Positions 1-33,079 of a stretch of DNA of 35,787 nt are shown here, piece after piece. The stretch comes from Kiritimatiellia bacterium (lineage in GTDB: Bacteria > Verrucomicrobiota > Kiritimatiellia > SLAD01), in assembly GCA_007126515.1 (NCBI GenBank), contig SLBD01000188.1, positions 1 to 35,787 on the forward strand, written 5' to 3'. Both the position numbers and the translations under genes were made by a program. Every line of letters starts with the position of its first letter. The first letter of the stretch is position 1. The notes under the pieces are model-generated. The model was given only the letters and a program-made list of their open reading frames with translations. It was not told the DNA's origin and ran no database searches.

Positions 1-100
1 CCGCTCTCGTGTACCGATTTCCTCTTTGACAGCAGCTTCGCTTGGTAGATCATCCATGTTGGCGAACGAGGGCTCGTTTAACAAAGAGGTAGTGCGTATT

Positions 101-410
101 ATGGCTAAATCAAAAGGACCCGAGTTCCTGCGTTTCTGCATCCCCATCATCGATGTCCTTTGCGATCTGGGCGGATCAGGGCGTCCTGCTGAAGTCACCG
201 ACTTGGTTTTGGAACGATTACATGTTTCAGAAGCCGAGCAGGAAATCGCCAATCAAAACGGGGGATCACGGGCGCGAAATCAGGTTGCATGGGCCTATTG
301 AGTTGGTGGACGGAGAGAAACTTATCGACATGTTTGAATCTCTTAGCCTCGGCCTTCGCCCTAAGAAAGACTACGAAATTGATGAACAGTTTTTTGTTCA
401 ATTCAAATAG
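101..410 (+). pseudogene. Mrr-type restriction endonuclease remnant: N-terminal winged-helix part joined out of frame to the C-terminal tail, catalytic core absent
   Basis: Frame of ORF 26..301 reads FLRFCIPIIDVLCDLGGSGRPAEVTDLVLERLHVSEAEQEIANQNGGSRARNQVAWA (Mrr_N-like). Frame of ORF 153..410 reads GPIELVDGEKLIDMFESLSLGLRPKKDYEIDEQFF (Mrr C-terminal-like). No PD-(D/E)XK domain lies between. Confidence 0.65.
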
Positions 411-440
411 CCACTCATACAGATGGTGAAGGAGGCAGTA

Positions 441-821
441 ATGGAACCATTTGTTGTTGTCATTGGGTTTGTGATGTTAGCCATTGTAATTCGGTTGGTA
501 GCTGGATCATTCGACGGGGACCGAGTTGAAGCCTACGTAAGGGGAAAAGGATGGGAACTGGTTGATCGGAGCTGGAATCCTTTAGGGCCAGGATGGTTTG
601 GTGAAAAGAATGCTCGCATCTATCGCATCATGTATCGGGACACCCAAGACAACCTGCATCACGCACATGTCAAAACCTCTATGTTGAGCGGCGTCTACCT
701 CACCAACGATGAGATCGTCGAACATAGCCCCGAAAGCCATAGGACGAAAGAACAGTTGCTGGCAGATGAAAATCAGCGTTTGAAAGAACGTCTCAAGGAA
801 TTGGAAAAGGGTAAGAGATAA
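441..821 (+). CDS. Hypothetical protein with N-terminal transmembrane segment and C-terminal charged coiled coil
   Basis: ORF 423..821; ATG at 441 preceded by GGAGG; hydrophobic FVVVIGFVMLAIVIRLV; Lys/Glu-rich tail. Confidence 0.55.
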   Translation: MEPFVVVIGFVMLAIVIRLVAGSFDGDRVEAYVRGKGWELVDRSWNPLGPGWFGEKNARIYRIMYRDTQDNLHHAHVKTSMLSGVYLTNDEIVEHSPESHRTKEQLLADENQRLKERLKELEKGKR

Positions 822-828
822 CCCGCGG

Positions 829-884
829 GTCATTCCGACCGAAGTCCTGGAGCGACGCGACGGGACGAAGTGGAGGAATCTCCA
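829..884. repeat. Dispersed intergenic element of the GTCATTCCGA(S)CGAAG...GAGGAATCT type
   Basis: gtcattccgaccgaagtcctggagcgacgcgacgggacgaagtggaggaatctcc, noncoding gap; resembles a sequence type common in bacterial MAG intergenic regions. Confidence 0.4.
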
Positions 885-1006
885 GCGTTTCCCACGCAAC
901 AGATCTCTCGCCGCTGTTGTTTCTCACTCCTCACCATGCTGGTCTTGAGCGGACGCAGAATTCTGAAAATAGCTTATAGGCTATTGATTGAAACAATCCG
1001 AAACGC

Positions 1007-1030
1007 AGCTATAGCTTATAAGCTATAGCT
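1007..1030. repeat. 24-bp perfect palindrome
   Basis: AGCTATAGCTTATAAGCTATAGCT equals its own reverse complement; near-copy ATAGCTTATAGGCTAT at 969-984. Confidence 0.9.
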
Positions 1031-1094
1031 TGCCGAAGCAGGCTGGAAGCCTGTTTCACCCTGTATCGCAAGTGCAAAGGCGGTTTGGCGCGGT

Positions 1095-1201
1095 TTCCAC
1101 TCAATGGAAGAAAAAACGGCGGTTTTCCATTCAATGGAAACTTTTTAATGCATTTTTCCACTCAATGGAAATTTTTCGGTCCGTTTTTCCATTCAATGGA
1201 A
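1095..1201. repeat. Phased palindrome array 1: four copies of TTCCA[C/T]TCAATGGAA
   Basis: Copies at 1095-1109, 1125-1139, 1156-1170 and 1187-1201; start-to-start distances 30, 31, 31; variants alternate C,T,C,T. Confidence 0.95.
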
Positions 1202-1284
1202 AAATATTGGGGCCCACCTTGAACCTTTCCGAACTGGATTGTGTCCCAAGTTTGGAATCAAAATTGGCAATCGGAGGATTCAAC

Positions 1285-2469
1285 ATGAAGAGAATGATTA
1301 TATTTTTATTTTTTGCTGCACTGGCTGTATCGGCCCAGGCAGGGTTTGAGGATGAGGTGATCTTCTCGCGCAGTCGGACGGAGTATGAAATGGTGACTCT
1401 GACCCGGCGGATTGGCGGTTTAAATCGACCGTGGGCGGCGGCGTTTCCGGGCGAGAACCAGTATTTGATTACAGAGCGAGCCGGACGGTTGCTGTTCATT
1501 GATGAAAATGGCCATCGCCATGAGGTATCCGGATTACCGGATGATCTGGTTGCGATTAACCAAGGCGGGTTGCTGGATATCGTGCTGCACCCGGAATTTG
1601 AAGAGAATGGCTGGATTTACATGACGTATTCCCAAGGGACCCGCGCAGCGACAGCCACGACCCTGATTCGGGCTCGCTTGGATGGCACGACGTTGGTGGA
1701 TGTGGAGCAGCTGTTTACGCAGGATCGAACTTCGTCGCCGGGGCGCCATTATGGGTCGCGTATCCTCTTCACGGATTCGAATATGCTGCTGATGACGATT
1801 GGGGATCGAGGCACTCATCCAGAGCGTGCTCAGGATCCCTTGGATCATGCCGGCACGGTGATCCGGCTGCGCGACGATGGATCGATTCCCGAGGACAATC
1901 CGTTTGTGGGGAATCCACGGTATCTGCCAGAAATCTTCTCGTATGGTCATCGGAATATTCAGGGAATTGCGATGCATCCCATCACGGGAGAGATTTGGGC
2001 GACCGACCATGGCGCGCGCGGCGGGGATCGATTGGACCGAATCGATGCGGGCCGCAACTACGGCTGGCCGGTTGCAACTCCGAGTCTTAATTACCGCGAT
2101 GGAACTCCGGTGTCGGATACCCGCGTCGGGTTTGGGTATGTTCCGCCTGTCTTTGAGATTCTGCCGACATTGGCTCCGTCGGGATTGGCGTTCGCGGATG
2201 CATCCACGTTTCCACGCTGGGAGGGAGATCTGTTGGCTGGCGGCTTGGCGAGTCGTCAATTGCAGCGCATGGTGCCGGCGTATGGTCCCCTTTCAAAATT
2301 TAAGGACGGGCAGCGTCGCATCACTATCGAAGGCCCATACTTAGCTCATTCCGAGATCCTGCTAATCAATCAAATCGGGCGAATTCGCGACGTCCGGACA
2401 GGGCCGGGCGGGAACGTTTATATCCTTACCGATGAGAGCAATGGCGGATTGTATCGATTGACGCCGTAG
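1285..2469 (+). CDS. PQQ-dependent sugar dehydrogenase family protein (glucose/sorbosone dehydrogenase-like, YliI type), exported
   Basis: Signal peptide MKRMIIFLFFAALAVSAQA; RBS GGAGGA; motifs GDRG, IFSYGHRNIQGIAMHP, WATDHGARGGDRLDRIDAGRNYGWP. Confidence 0.85.
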   Translation: MKRMIIFLFFAALAVSAQAGFEDEVIFSRSRTEYEMVTLTRRIGGLNRPWAAAFPGENQYLITERAGRLLFIDENGHRHEVSGLPDDLVAINQGGLLDIVLHPEFEENGWIYMTYSQGTRAATATTLIRARLDGTTLVDVEQLFTQDRTSSPGRHYGSRILFTDSNMLLMTIGDRGTHPERAQDPLDHAGTVIRLRDDGSIPEDNPFVGNPRYLPEIFSYGHRNIQGIAMHPITGEIWATDHGARGGDRLDRIDAGRNYGWPVATPSLNYRDGTPVSDTRVGFGYVPPVFEILPTLAPSGLAFADASTFPRWEGDLLAGGLASRQLQRMVPAYGPLSKFKDGQRRITIEGPYLAHSEILLINQIGRIRDVRTGPGGNVYILTDESNGGLYRLTP

Positions 2470-2552
2470 TTCTCTGCTTGACGCAACTCGCTCGCTTGCC
2501 TAGCCTTGACCATTGGCATCCGCGCTTGGATGCGAAGGTGTGAAGGTGTGAC

Positions 2553-3968
2553 ATGGGTCGCTGTTTAATACGCGATATTCATACGTTGGTGACGATGGTA
2601 GACGGGGAGCCCGACCTGAGCGGGGCGCATCTGCTGATCGAAGGCAACCGGATTGCAAAGATTCTCCGGGCGGAAGACCGTGCGGAGGCGGACGCGTGGG
2701 CGGGCGAGGCCGAGACGGAAATTATTGATGGACGCTGGTGTGTGGTTTACCCCGGCTTCATCAACATGCATCATCACCTTTACCAAACCCTGACTCGCAA
2801 TATCCCCCACGTCCAAAATGCCAAGTTATTCGATTGGCTGATCGGCCTCTACGAAGTCTGGCGCGAACTCAGCGAGGAGGCGGTGGAGGTGAGCACGCAA
2901 ATTGGTTGCGGCGAACTGCTGCTTTCCGGCTGCACGACAACTACCGATCATTTTTATGTGTTTCCGGAAAAAGCGTCGGCGGAGCTGTTGGATGTGGAAA
3001 TCAAAGCTGCGCGGCGGATCGGCATGCGCTTTCATCCGACGCGCGGCAGCATGAGTCGGGGCCGGTCGCAGGGCGGATTGCCGCCGGATGACCTGGTGCA
3101 AACGGCAGATGCAATTCTGGCGGATTGTAACCGGGTTATTGATGCGTACCACGATCCCGAACCGTTTTCGATGTGCCGGATTATTCTGGCTCCCTGCTCG
3201 CCGTTCTCGGTGACGACGGAGTTGCTGTCGGAAACGGCGGAACTGGCGAGGCAACGGCAGGTTCGCTGTCACACGCATTTGTGCGAAACGATCGATGAAG
3301 AAGAGTTCTGCCTGCAAACCCATGGCATGCGGCCACTGGCCTACATGGAGAAAACCGGCTGGGTGGGCGAGGATGTCTGGTACGCGCATGGCATCTACTT
3401 TAATGACGACGAAATTCGGCTGCTGGCGGAATCGCAGACCGGCATCTCCCACTGTCCTTCGTCCAATCTGCGCCTGGGCTCGGGAATCGCCCCGATTCCG
3501 AAAATGCTGGATGCGGGCGTGCGCGTGGGATTGGGTGTCGATGGCAGCGCCAGCAACGATGCATCGAATATTGGCCGCGAAATGCAGATGGCCTTGCTGG
3601 TGCATCGCGTTGGGACGGGCGTGGAGGCGATGCCGCCGCGACCGGTGCTGCGCATGGCGACGCGTGGGGGCGCAACGATTTTGGGGCAACCGGAGATTGG
3701 CCAGTTGGCTCCGGGCGCAGCAGCGGATGTGGCGATGTTCCGGCTGGACAAGATCGACTATGCGGGGGCGATGAGCGATCCCGCCCATGCGATGCTGTTT
3801 TGCGGCTCGGGGCCGCGCACTGAATTGACGATGGTAAATGGCCGGATCGTGGTCCGCGGTGGAAAACTGGTGGACGTGGATGAAGAGGCCTTGTTCCATC
3901 GCGCCAATGCAATTGCTGAGAAGATGTTAACGGAAACCGAACGCAAAACCGGCCAAGCATACCGGTAG
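2553..3968 (+). CDS. Amidohydrolase, 8-oxoguanine deaminase-like (COG0402)
   Basis: GFINMHHHLYQTLTR, HTHLCET, ISHCPSSNLRLGSGIAP, GVDGSASND motifs. Confidence 0.8.
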   Translation: MGRCLIRDIHTLVTMVDGEPDLSGAHLLIEGNRIAKILRAEDRAEADAWAGEAETEIIDGRWCVVYPGFINMHHHLYQTLTRNIPHVQNAKLFDWLIGLYEVWRELSEEAVEVSTQIGCGELLLSGCTTTTDHFYVFPEKASAELLDVEIKAARRIGMRFHPTRGSMSRGRSQGGLPPDDLVQTADAILADCNRVIDAYHDPEPFSMCRIILAPCSPFSVTTELLSETAELARQRQVRCHTHLCETIDEEEFCLQTHGMRPLAYMEKTGWVGEDVWYAHGIYFNDDEIRLLAESQTGISHCPSSNLRLGSGIAPIPKMLDAGVRVGLGVDGSASNDASNIGREMQMALLVHRVGTGVEAMPPRPVLRMATRGGATILGQPEIGQLAPGAAADVAMFRLDKIDYAGAMSDPAHAMLFCGSGPRTELTMVNGRIVVRGGKLVDVDEEALFHRANAIAEKMLTETERKTGQAYR

Positions 3969-30470: not shown

Positions 30471-31809
30471 TCACTGAGGCCCCACCCACGCCTCAAGCAG
30501 CTCTTCCATCCGCGCTAGCCGCTGCTTCAATGCCTCGTTTTCCGCCTCCAGCGCAATCACCTTCGCGTTCAGACCCTGAATTGCCGCCAAGGCCACTCCG
30601 TCCGTATCCAACGTGTTAATCGTCACGTCATCACCCAAACCAAACGACGCATGGAAATCCTGCGCCACAGGTCCGATGTATCGACGCTGTCCGGGATCGG
30701 CCTTGTAGTTCCAAGCCGACAGCGGCAAGGCAGCGACCTGCGCCAAAATCTCGCCCGTGTCGATCGCCTCAAAGTTCTCCTTTACCTCGCGGTCAGACAG
30801 GATCGACCAAGCCGTCGCATTCGCTGCTAATTCAACTCCTAATGAATTCTTGTCATCCGTGATCAGGCGATACCCCCCCGATGCGCGAAACGTGACGGTA
30901 TTGGGCATGGGTGATGTCAGATCGGTCCCCGTCGCATCGGCCCATACAAACTGTCCTTCCAGTGCCGCCTTCGCTTGTCGGCCTGCTGCAAACGAATAAT
31001 TCCCCGCCGCAACATTTTGGAAGCCGCCCGGCACCGTGCTATAGGAACCGCCACTGATAGCGCCCGCTCGGTTTTCAGCACCTCCGCCCACAACCGAATT
31101 CGTGCCCATGGCAACATTCCTCTGCCCTCCCGCCACTCACGGTGGACTCGTTGCCGCTGGCTATATTTTGATCCCCAATGGCAATGGAATTCGTGCCACT
31201 CGCCACCGGCGGCGTGGCAAACGGGCCGCTTTGCGCGAAACCGCTGATCGCCATCGACGGCATCGTCGCCCAGTTCAACTTATTGCTGGTGATGCTGTTG
31301 TCGACGATATTGACACCAGTGATGGACTCGTACACCACGCCACCCGCCACAGCCGCGAAGGGAACTGACCCCAAAGGCTGGTCAGGCTCAAGTCGTGTGA
31401 AGTTCTCATTATCCTCACTAAACCAAATCCGTAGATACAGGATCGTTGGCAAAAAGACATACGAGGGCAACGGCACCATATTCGGCAGATCCGCATTGCC
31501 CAGCTCGACCATGAACAAGCCATTCTCAACGGCTAGTTCGACCGCACTTGTCGGCTTAATCACATCCACTTCCGACCCTATCGTATCGTTCCGCCAACGA
31601 GCCGCCGAGGCTTCCGGAGAAGACAGCAGCGCGAACTTGAAATAGCCGGTACCGCTGAACGGAGCCCCGTTGGCCGTCACCAACCCCTGATAACTGATCG
31701 TCGGCGGCACATCCTCAAAGCCCGGCGGCAGTGCGTGGCTATTCAGAACAACCCCCACGGCCAACAAAGCAATCCATGTCACACTCGCGAGTTTATAATG
31801 GCTCATCAT
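30471..31809 (-). pseudogene. Exported tail-fibre/YadA-head-like protein with C-terminal Peptidase_S74 chaperone domain, interrupted by a frameshift
   Basis: N-part (start 31806/31809, RBS GGAAAGGA): signal peptide, TISYQGLVTANGAPFSGTGYFKFALL, ends in hep_Hag-like repeat. C-part in another frame: GGQRNVAMGTNSVVGGGAENRAG...LSDREVKENFEAID...QRRYIGPVAQDFHASFGLG. Confidence 0.75.
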
Positions 31810-31858: not shown

Positions 31859-31997
31859 TTCCACTCAATGGAAGAATTTTTTGGTGTTTTTCCACTCAAT
31901 GGAAATTTTCCGTAGCTTTTTTCCATTCAATGGAAAAAAATCAGCCCGAGTTTCCACTCAATGGAAGTTTTCCGGGGCGATTTTCCATTCAATGGAA
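31859..31997. repeat. Phased palindrome array 2: five copies of TTCCA[C/T]TCAATGGAA
   Basis: Copies at 31859-31873, 31890-31904, 31921-31935, 31952-31966 and 31983-31997; every start-to-start distance is 31 bp; variants C,C,T,C,T. Confidence 0.95.
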
Positions 31998-32280: not shown

Positions 32281-32559
32281 ATGAGTAAATCCATACGTAT
32301 CAGTGACACTCTAATTGCGGAGGCCGAAAGAGTTGCTCGGGCGTTCCACCGCTCGCCGCCACAGCAAGTCGAGCATTGGGCACAATTGGGGCGAATCATG
32401 GAAACGGCCCTCTCCTGGAAGGCCCAGTCCAACGCGAAGGCCGCCAGCATGTATAGTCAGCTAGAAGATGCCTTGGCTTCCGTGGATACCGTTGCAGGGC
32501 TGAACAGGAGCCATAATGTCATTCGGCGTACCTCTGTGATGCCGTGCGGCTATGAGTGA
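32281..32559 (+). CDS. ParD-like antitoxin (PF11903-type)
   Basis: MSKSIRISDTLIAEAERVARAFHRSPPQQVEHWAQLGRIMETAL; overlaps downstream toxin by 8 nt. Confidence 0.8.
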   Translation: MSKSIRISDTLIAEAERVARAFHRSPPQQVEHWAQLGRIMETALSWKAQSNAKAASMYSQLEDALASVDTVAGLNRSHNVIRRTSVMPCGYE

Positions 32560-33079
32560 GCCGGACAAGCCAATTCTGGTCATGCTGGCTGGTCCGAACG
32601 GAGCTGGCAAGACGACGTTTTATGAAGCCCACCTCGCCCCTTTGGGATTGCCGTTTATCAACGCCGATATTCTGGTGCGCACGCTAGGACTTGCGCCGTA
32701 CGAGGCCGCTATCGAGGCGGAGCGCATTCGTGAGATCTATGTTGAAAAGCAGATCGGTTTTGTTTCTGAAACCGTCTTTTCTGATCCAGTTGCCTCCAAG
32801 CTCGCTTTTCTATGCCGAGCTGTTCAAGCAGGGTTTGATGTCCATCTGATTTTCATCCAGATTCGGGATGTTGAGTTGTCGATGGCGCGTGTGCGCGACC
32901 GGGTTGCGGCCGGTGGGCACGATGTTCCGGAAGATAAACTAAAGAGCCGTTTCGCCCGAACTCAAACGAACCTACGTAAAGCCTGCAAAGTTCTGCCACA
33001 TGTCTTGATTTACGACAACTCGTCCTATCAGGCACCCTTCCGCTTGAAGGCTGAATATCGCGAGGGAAAACGCATATAA
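32552..33079 (+). CDS. Zeta toxin family protein (P-loop kinase-like)
   Basis: MLAGPNGAGKTTFYEAHLAPLGLPFINADILV Walker A; FVSETVFSDP; RVRDRVAAGGHDVPEDKLKSRF. Confidence 0.85.
   Translation: MSEPDKPILVMLAGPNGAGKTTFYEAHLAPLGLPFINADILVRTLGLAPYEAAIEAERIREIYVEKQIGFVSETVFSDPVASKLAFLCRAVQAGFDVHLIFIQIRDVELSMARVRDRVAAGGHDVPEDKLKSRFARTQTNLRKACKVLPHVLIYDNSSYQAPFRLKAEYREGKRI

Follow-up and report, generated by a model that had tools for sequence, protein, structure and literature searches.

Palindrome arrays in the window and in the source genome

The window, i.e. the whole stretch of 35,787 nucleotides of Kiritimatiellia DNA that was analysed, held two arrays of a short palindrome. The chance expectation for exact copies of the palindrome in the window was approximately 0.0002. 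The relevant features were as follows.

969 to 1026, plus strand: ATAGCTTATARGCTAT, another palindromic element, present upstream of array 1 as a pair (969-984 and 1011-1026, distance 42 bp)
1095 to 1201, plus strand: array 1, four copies of TTCCAYTCAATGGAA with starts at 1095, 1125, 1156 and 1187 (steps of 30, 31 and 31)
1285 to 2469, plus strand: gene for a GSDH-family (PF07995) dehydrogenase, neighbour downstream of array 1, with nothing that marks it as a specific target
31859 to 31997, plus strand: array 2, five copies of TTCCAYTCAATGGAA with starts at 31859, 31890, 31921, 31952 and 31983 (all steps 31)

The positions of the four palindromes of array 1 and their C,T,C,T order were exactly as given in an earlier note on this DNA. 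The strict alternation of the two types, which had been pointed out there, was local to array 1. Genome-wide, 77 exact C-type and 42 exact T-type copies occurred in mixed orders. Array 1 ended 83 bp before the ATG at 1285. The protein encoded downstream was identified by a Pfam match as a glucose/sorbosone dehydrogenase (GSDH, PF07995, E=9e-106), and no specific tie of array 1 to this gene was found. The gene adjoining array 2, located at 31075-31809 on the minus strand, showed a weak match to YadA-head repeats slightly below the Pfam cut-off, and its product resembles a secreted or surface protein. At 32552-33079, some hundreds of bases away from array 2, there was a zeta-toxin-like gene (PF06414, E=1e-10). 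Together with the short ORF preceding it, it possibly forms a toxin-antitoxin pair.

A scan of the source genome revealed approximately 136 palindrome copies at about 36 loci. Most loci were arrays of two to seven palindromes; the few single copies included several near contig ends. The step within arrays was 31 bp in nearly all cases and 29, 30 or 32 bp in a few. Each array started and finished on a palindrome, and flanking sequences had little in common from array to array. The spacers had been described as unrelated as well, which proved incorrect: their identity was 48%, compared with 29% expected from composition, and they shared the patterns aCTTTTtggcccgtTT and GAAAAaaatcgCgtTT. Palindromes of the same units were 95% identical, showing that the sites are constrained and the spacers much less so. 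With one exception, the palindromes within each array had a uniform orientation. The first spacer tended toward GAAAAaaatcgCgtTT and later spacers toward aCTTTTtggcccgtTT, so the arrays are polar.

Pairs of ATAGCTTATARGCTAT with a distance of 41-42 bp, or four helical turns, were located 18-70 bp upstream of seven of the approximately 36 source-genome arrays, once as a single copy. Besides array 1, these were L040, L041, L042, L046, L059 and L060. No further copy was detected elsewhere in 294 kb of source-genome sequence examined. The element appears to belong to the same system as the arrays and may be a site for a partner protein.

Distribution and helical phasing of the site

The general form of the site across the class was TTCCA-N5-TGGAA. 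About a third of the Kiritimatiellia genomes surveyed were rich in it. In the remainder of the phylum its frequency was that expected by chance, with 0-32 copies per genome outside the class. Site-rich genomes, mostly drafts like the survey as a whole, contained about 50 to 3,240 copies each, while the reversed control pattern was found 0-12 times. The complete genome G137 (3.88 Mb) had 951 sites versus one for the reversed control, and 113 copies were present in a sister species. Site counts were at or close to chance in the families f2, f9, f19, f26, f37 and f38, and a site-poor relative, G007, had five sites. The distance between the arms was strict. In 520 kb of G137, TTCCA-Nk-TGGAA occurred 133 times at k=5 and 0-1 times at any of the other gap lengths up to k=11. 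Other phased palindromes were searched for de novo in G005, G018, G198 and G301 (7-85 kb each), and none was found. In the open-licence literature, no earlier description of these repeats was found; one elsewhere is possible.

Two further observations were made during the survey. One contig of a viral collection, L468 (IMGVR_UViG_3300035698_006241), carried a TTCCAATGATTGGAA pair at 31 bp and represents either phage or mis-sorted host DNA; with another, narrower pattern, no contig of the viral collection matched. G389, a genome from a different class of the phylum, had 56 copies of the reversed control AAGGT-N5-ACCTT versus 0-15 elsewhere. These may reflect a separate system of palindromic sites that likewise has the 5-5-5 format.

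Steps in 110 loci of other species were 21-22, 30-32, 41-42, 51-52 and 62-64 bp, corresponding to whole helical turns. As these loci had been selected for a 31-bp pair, the informative steps are those other than 31. The genomes G137, G097 and G016 were taken without such a selection. Their pair distances of 60-500 bp were in phase at 10.4 bp with R=0.62 (n=43, distances sharing a site being non-independent). None of 4,000 jittered controls was as high, and control periods in the same range gave R values of 0.15-0.28. Phasing was still present at distances of 200-500 bp, with 14 of 4,000 jittered controls as high, all distances above about 130 bp originating from G137 alone. The preferred step was 32 bp in G097 versus 31 bp in the source genome. 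The proposal that all sites lie on one DNA face with a period of about 31 bp was strongly supported, as the step was kept throughout the class and the other spacings were also whole turns.

Gene context, pheS and turnover between species

According to a home-made gene caller, which was used for the gene calls throughout the survey, the arrays of the source genome were essentially all intergenic. Their neighbours were unrelated genes, often with housekeeping functions. Random spacing or a location mostly inside coding sequence had been named as observations that would speak against a phased regulatory array. Neither was seen in the source genome. G137 departed from this on the second point, with 69 of 114 sites inside ORFs and in all three frames; per base, sites were nevertheless some four to five times denser in intergenic DNA. 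The system therefore goes beyond a promoter operator. Arrays occurred in divergent, tandem and convergent gaps in roughly the proportions expected from the intergenic background, and the special placement upstream of start codons that had been suspected was not recovered. The neutral gene context and the coding sites in G137 rule out a promoter-only operator as a general rule. Plain transcriptional regulation fits poorly with the ORF sites in G137 and the missing promoter enrichment. Clustering of 276 array-flanking proteins, carried out as a search for autoregulation, revealed no recurrent DNA-binding family beside the arrays. Recurrence was limited to pheS, pyrE, one GspK-like gene and a small number of others.

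In 19 of 24 site-rich genomes, covering eight families, the 250 bp preceding pheS contained two or more exact sites. The exceptions were G016, G035, G039 and G081, and G038 with one exact and two near sites. The last site was often 1-22 bp before the ATG. The orthologue query was approximate, with a source-genome match of 89% identity, and orthologues were still recovered. In several species, a TATAGAT-like box was present 5' of the pheS array, which is presumably a promoter.

Between species, the arms were invariant and the 5-bp core was species-specific, with YTCAA in the source genome and ATCRT in the sister species G002 and G003. At dnaJ-rsmE in G003 and at pheS in G002, the array had the same place and orientation as in the source genome, with every core changed. 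The carB array of G003 was located on the same side of the gene as in the source genome but nearer to it. The dnaJ-rsmE and carB gaps of G002 had no array, nor did the sister species at most other compared loci, indicating a fast turnover. The number of array positions shared with the sister species (p=0.018) is indicative only, as it assumes 2,000 intergenic gaps. At the level of the genome sequences, the core was shown to change genome-wide in concert between species.

Proposed binding platform, alternatives and known systems

Protein dimers that touch each other on one DNA face would be expected to leave short palindromes under constraint, spacers that vary more freely and distances of whole turns. 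Whole-turn spacing is not predicted by RNA structure, termination or a selfish repeat, which argues for binding. We consider it probable that a putative class-restricted global DNA-binding protein uses the arrays as cooperative one-face binding platforms. It would regulate locally at pheS and similar loci and may also organise the chromosome. The suggestion already made from the window, of an operator bound cooperatively or an array that organises the chromosome, gained strong support from the class-wide step of about 31 bp and the whole-turn spacings. Each TTCCA-N5-TGGAA palindrome would bind one dimer. The dimer would contact two half-sites of 5 bp, separated by one helical turn, on either side of a degenerate core of 5 bp. 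Where the distance between sites is two, three, four or more whole turns, neighbouring dimers would sit on the same helix face, where they could join as an oligomer, and the DNA would be coated, wrapped or looped. With approximately 100 to 3,000 sites per genome, the putative protein would have a global role, in regulation or in nucleoid organisation. Some genes are probably controlled by occupancy of their 5' region; the best case is pheS, where the array follows a TATAGAT-like box and precedes the start codon. We infer from sequence patterns that such a protein exists, that it oligomerises and that its binding has a regulatory or architectural effect.

Bacterial chromosomes are usually held to be organised by proteins of little sequence preference. 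More tentatively, and as a conjecture we would not yet favour, the putative protein could be a class-specific nucleoid protein with hundreds to thousands of sites in helical register, even where they are hundreds of base pairs apart or lie within coding sequence. Its core would be rewritten genome-wide as species diverge, with the protein and all its sites co-evolving.

The binder might be the Lrp/AsnC (feast/famine) protein of these genomes, whose octamers would wrap the DNA at sites two or three turns apart. Lrp proteins use site clusters on one face in which the centres are spaced by two or three turns of the helix (PMC2995911), the same geometry as in the arrays, where steps of 21-22 and 30-32 bp dominate. 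A PF01037 protein was encoded in 39 of 39 tested site-rich genomes versus 34 of 41 others (Fisher p=0.012). In G198 and G210 of the family f37, both without sites, the Lrp-like protein was reduced to the RAM domain and had no helix-turn-helix. Some array neighbours were amino-acid genes (pheS, thrC, leuA, gcvP and carB). However, an intact orthologue was present in site-poor genomes of many families, among them G018, G021, G040 and G041. The recognition-helix region varied among site-rich genomes although TTCCA is common to all of them, and the alignment revealed no consistent difference of this region in site-poor genomes. In ten loci examined, for some of which the reading frame was wrong, no sites were located around lrp. 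As Lrp also occurs in many site-poor genomes and its recognition helix shows no clear relation to the sites, binding by this Lrp is unproven, and we regard it as unlikely. The analogy itself stands, in that the arrays would work like Lrp-type arrays.

Selfish or mobile interspersed repeats of the REP/BIME or BOX type, spread by a transposase and without a function for the cell, would also be dispersed, mostly intergenic, sharp-ended and located beside unrelated genes, and their presence would vary between sister species as that of the arrays does. Copying, however, would leave the spacers as alike as the palindromes, whereas here the spacers have drifted and the palindromes are near-invariant. 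The whole-turn spacing of several lengths and the conservation of arrays before pheS across families do not agree with such an origin either. The transposase family PF01797 (RAYT) was not detected in the site-rich G024 and G038 (88% and 87% complete) and was present in many site-poor genomes; on this distribution, a RAYT/REP system was rejected. Mobile repeats in general are a rather improbable explanation.

The palindromes could act in RNA as terminators, attenuators or hairpins at ribosome sites, since each can form a short hairpin (-4.3 to -5.3 kcal/mol) and the arrays often directly follow stop codons or shortly precede start codons. Helical phasing would be meaningless in RNA, however. 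The hairpins are weak and A-U rich, and the commonest site of the source genome (77 of 136) has an unpaired C.A beside the stem. Convergent gaps were not enriched in arrays, mid-gene sites of G137 were in all three frames, and the window had no Rfam match. A role in RNA is very unlikely. As explanations, REP/RAYT repeats, terminators and RNA hairpins all fit worse than a binding platform. A DNA-uptake or other genome-mark sequence without a chromosome-bound protein would account for hundreds to thousands of copies, including those in ORFs, but is scarcely credible, as phased multi-copy arrays and fixed places upstream of pheS would be unexpected and uptake sequences are, to our knowledge, non-palindromic.

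In the present case, a whole class carries a strict and readable site code in approximately 100 to 3,000 copies per genome, with a helical register visible in the raw sequence. Phased binding, DNA wrapping and the co-evolution of a protein with all its sites can thus be tested directly, in a clade of which very few members have been cultured. The array itself is a ready bait for finding the putative protein.

Several known systems share parts of this organisation. CRISPR-like arrays also combine a constant repeat with variable spacers and have a repeat at both array ends. Their scale and content are unlike the arrays described here, which have a 15-bp repeat, a 16-bp spacer, dozens of loci and a base pattern common to spacers between arrays. 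REP/BIME elements with RAYT are likewise short, dispersed, intergenic and palindromic, with modular arrays and species-specific sequence. The arrays differ from them by the lack of a consistent RAYT association, by whole-turn phasing, by constrained sites with free spacers and by sites within ORFs in some species. NrdR box pairs and Fis upstream sites are about three turns apart and are bound cooperatively on one face, as is proposed for the present sites. Such phased operators are either sparse in the genome or degenerate in their motif, whereas the arrays have a strict motif in up to thousands of copies. Lrp/AsnC arrays, as known for Ss-LrpB and E. coli Lrp, share clustered palindromes on one face with two- or three-turn centres (PMC2995911), a global reach and interacting dimers that wrap approximately 100 bp. 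In contrast to these, the resident Lrp does not clearly track the sites, the arms (TTCCA/TGGAA) are different and far stricter, the core is non-A/T, and hundreds of near-perfect copies are restricted to one class.
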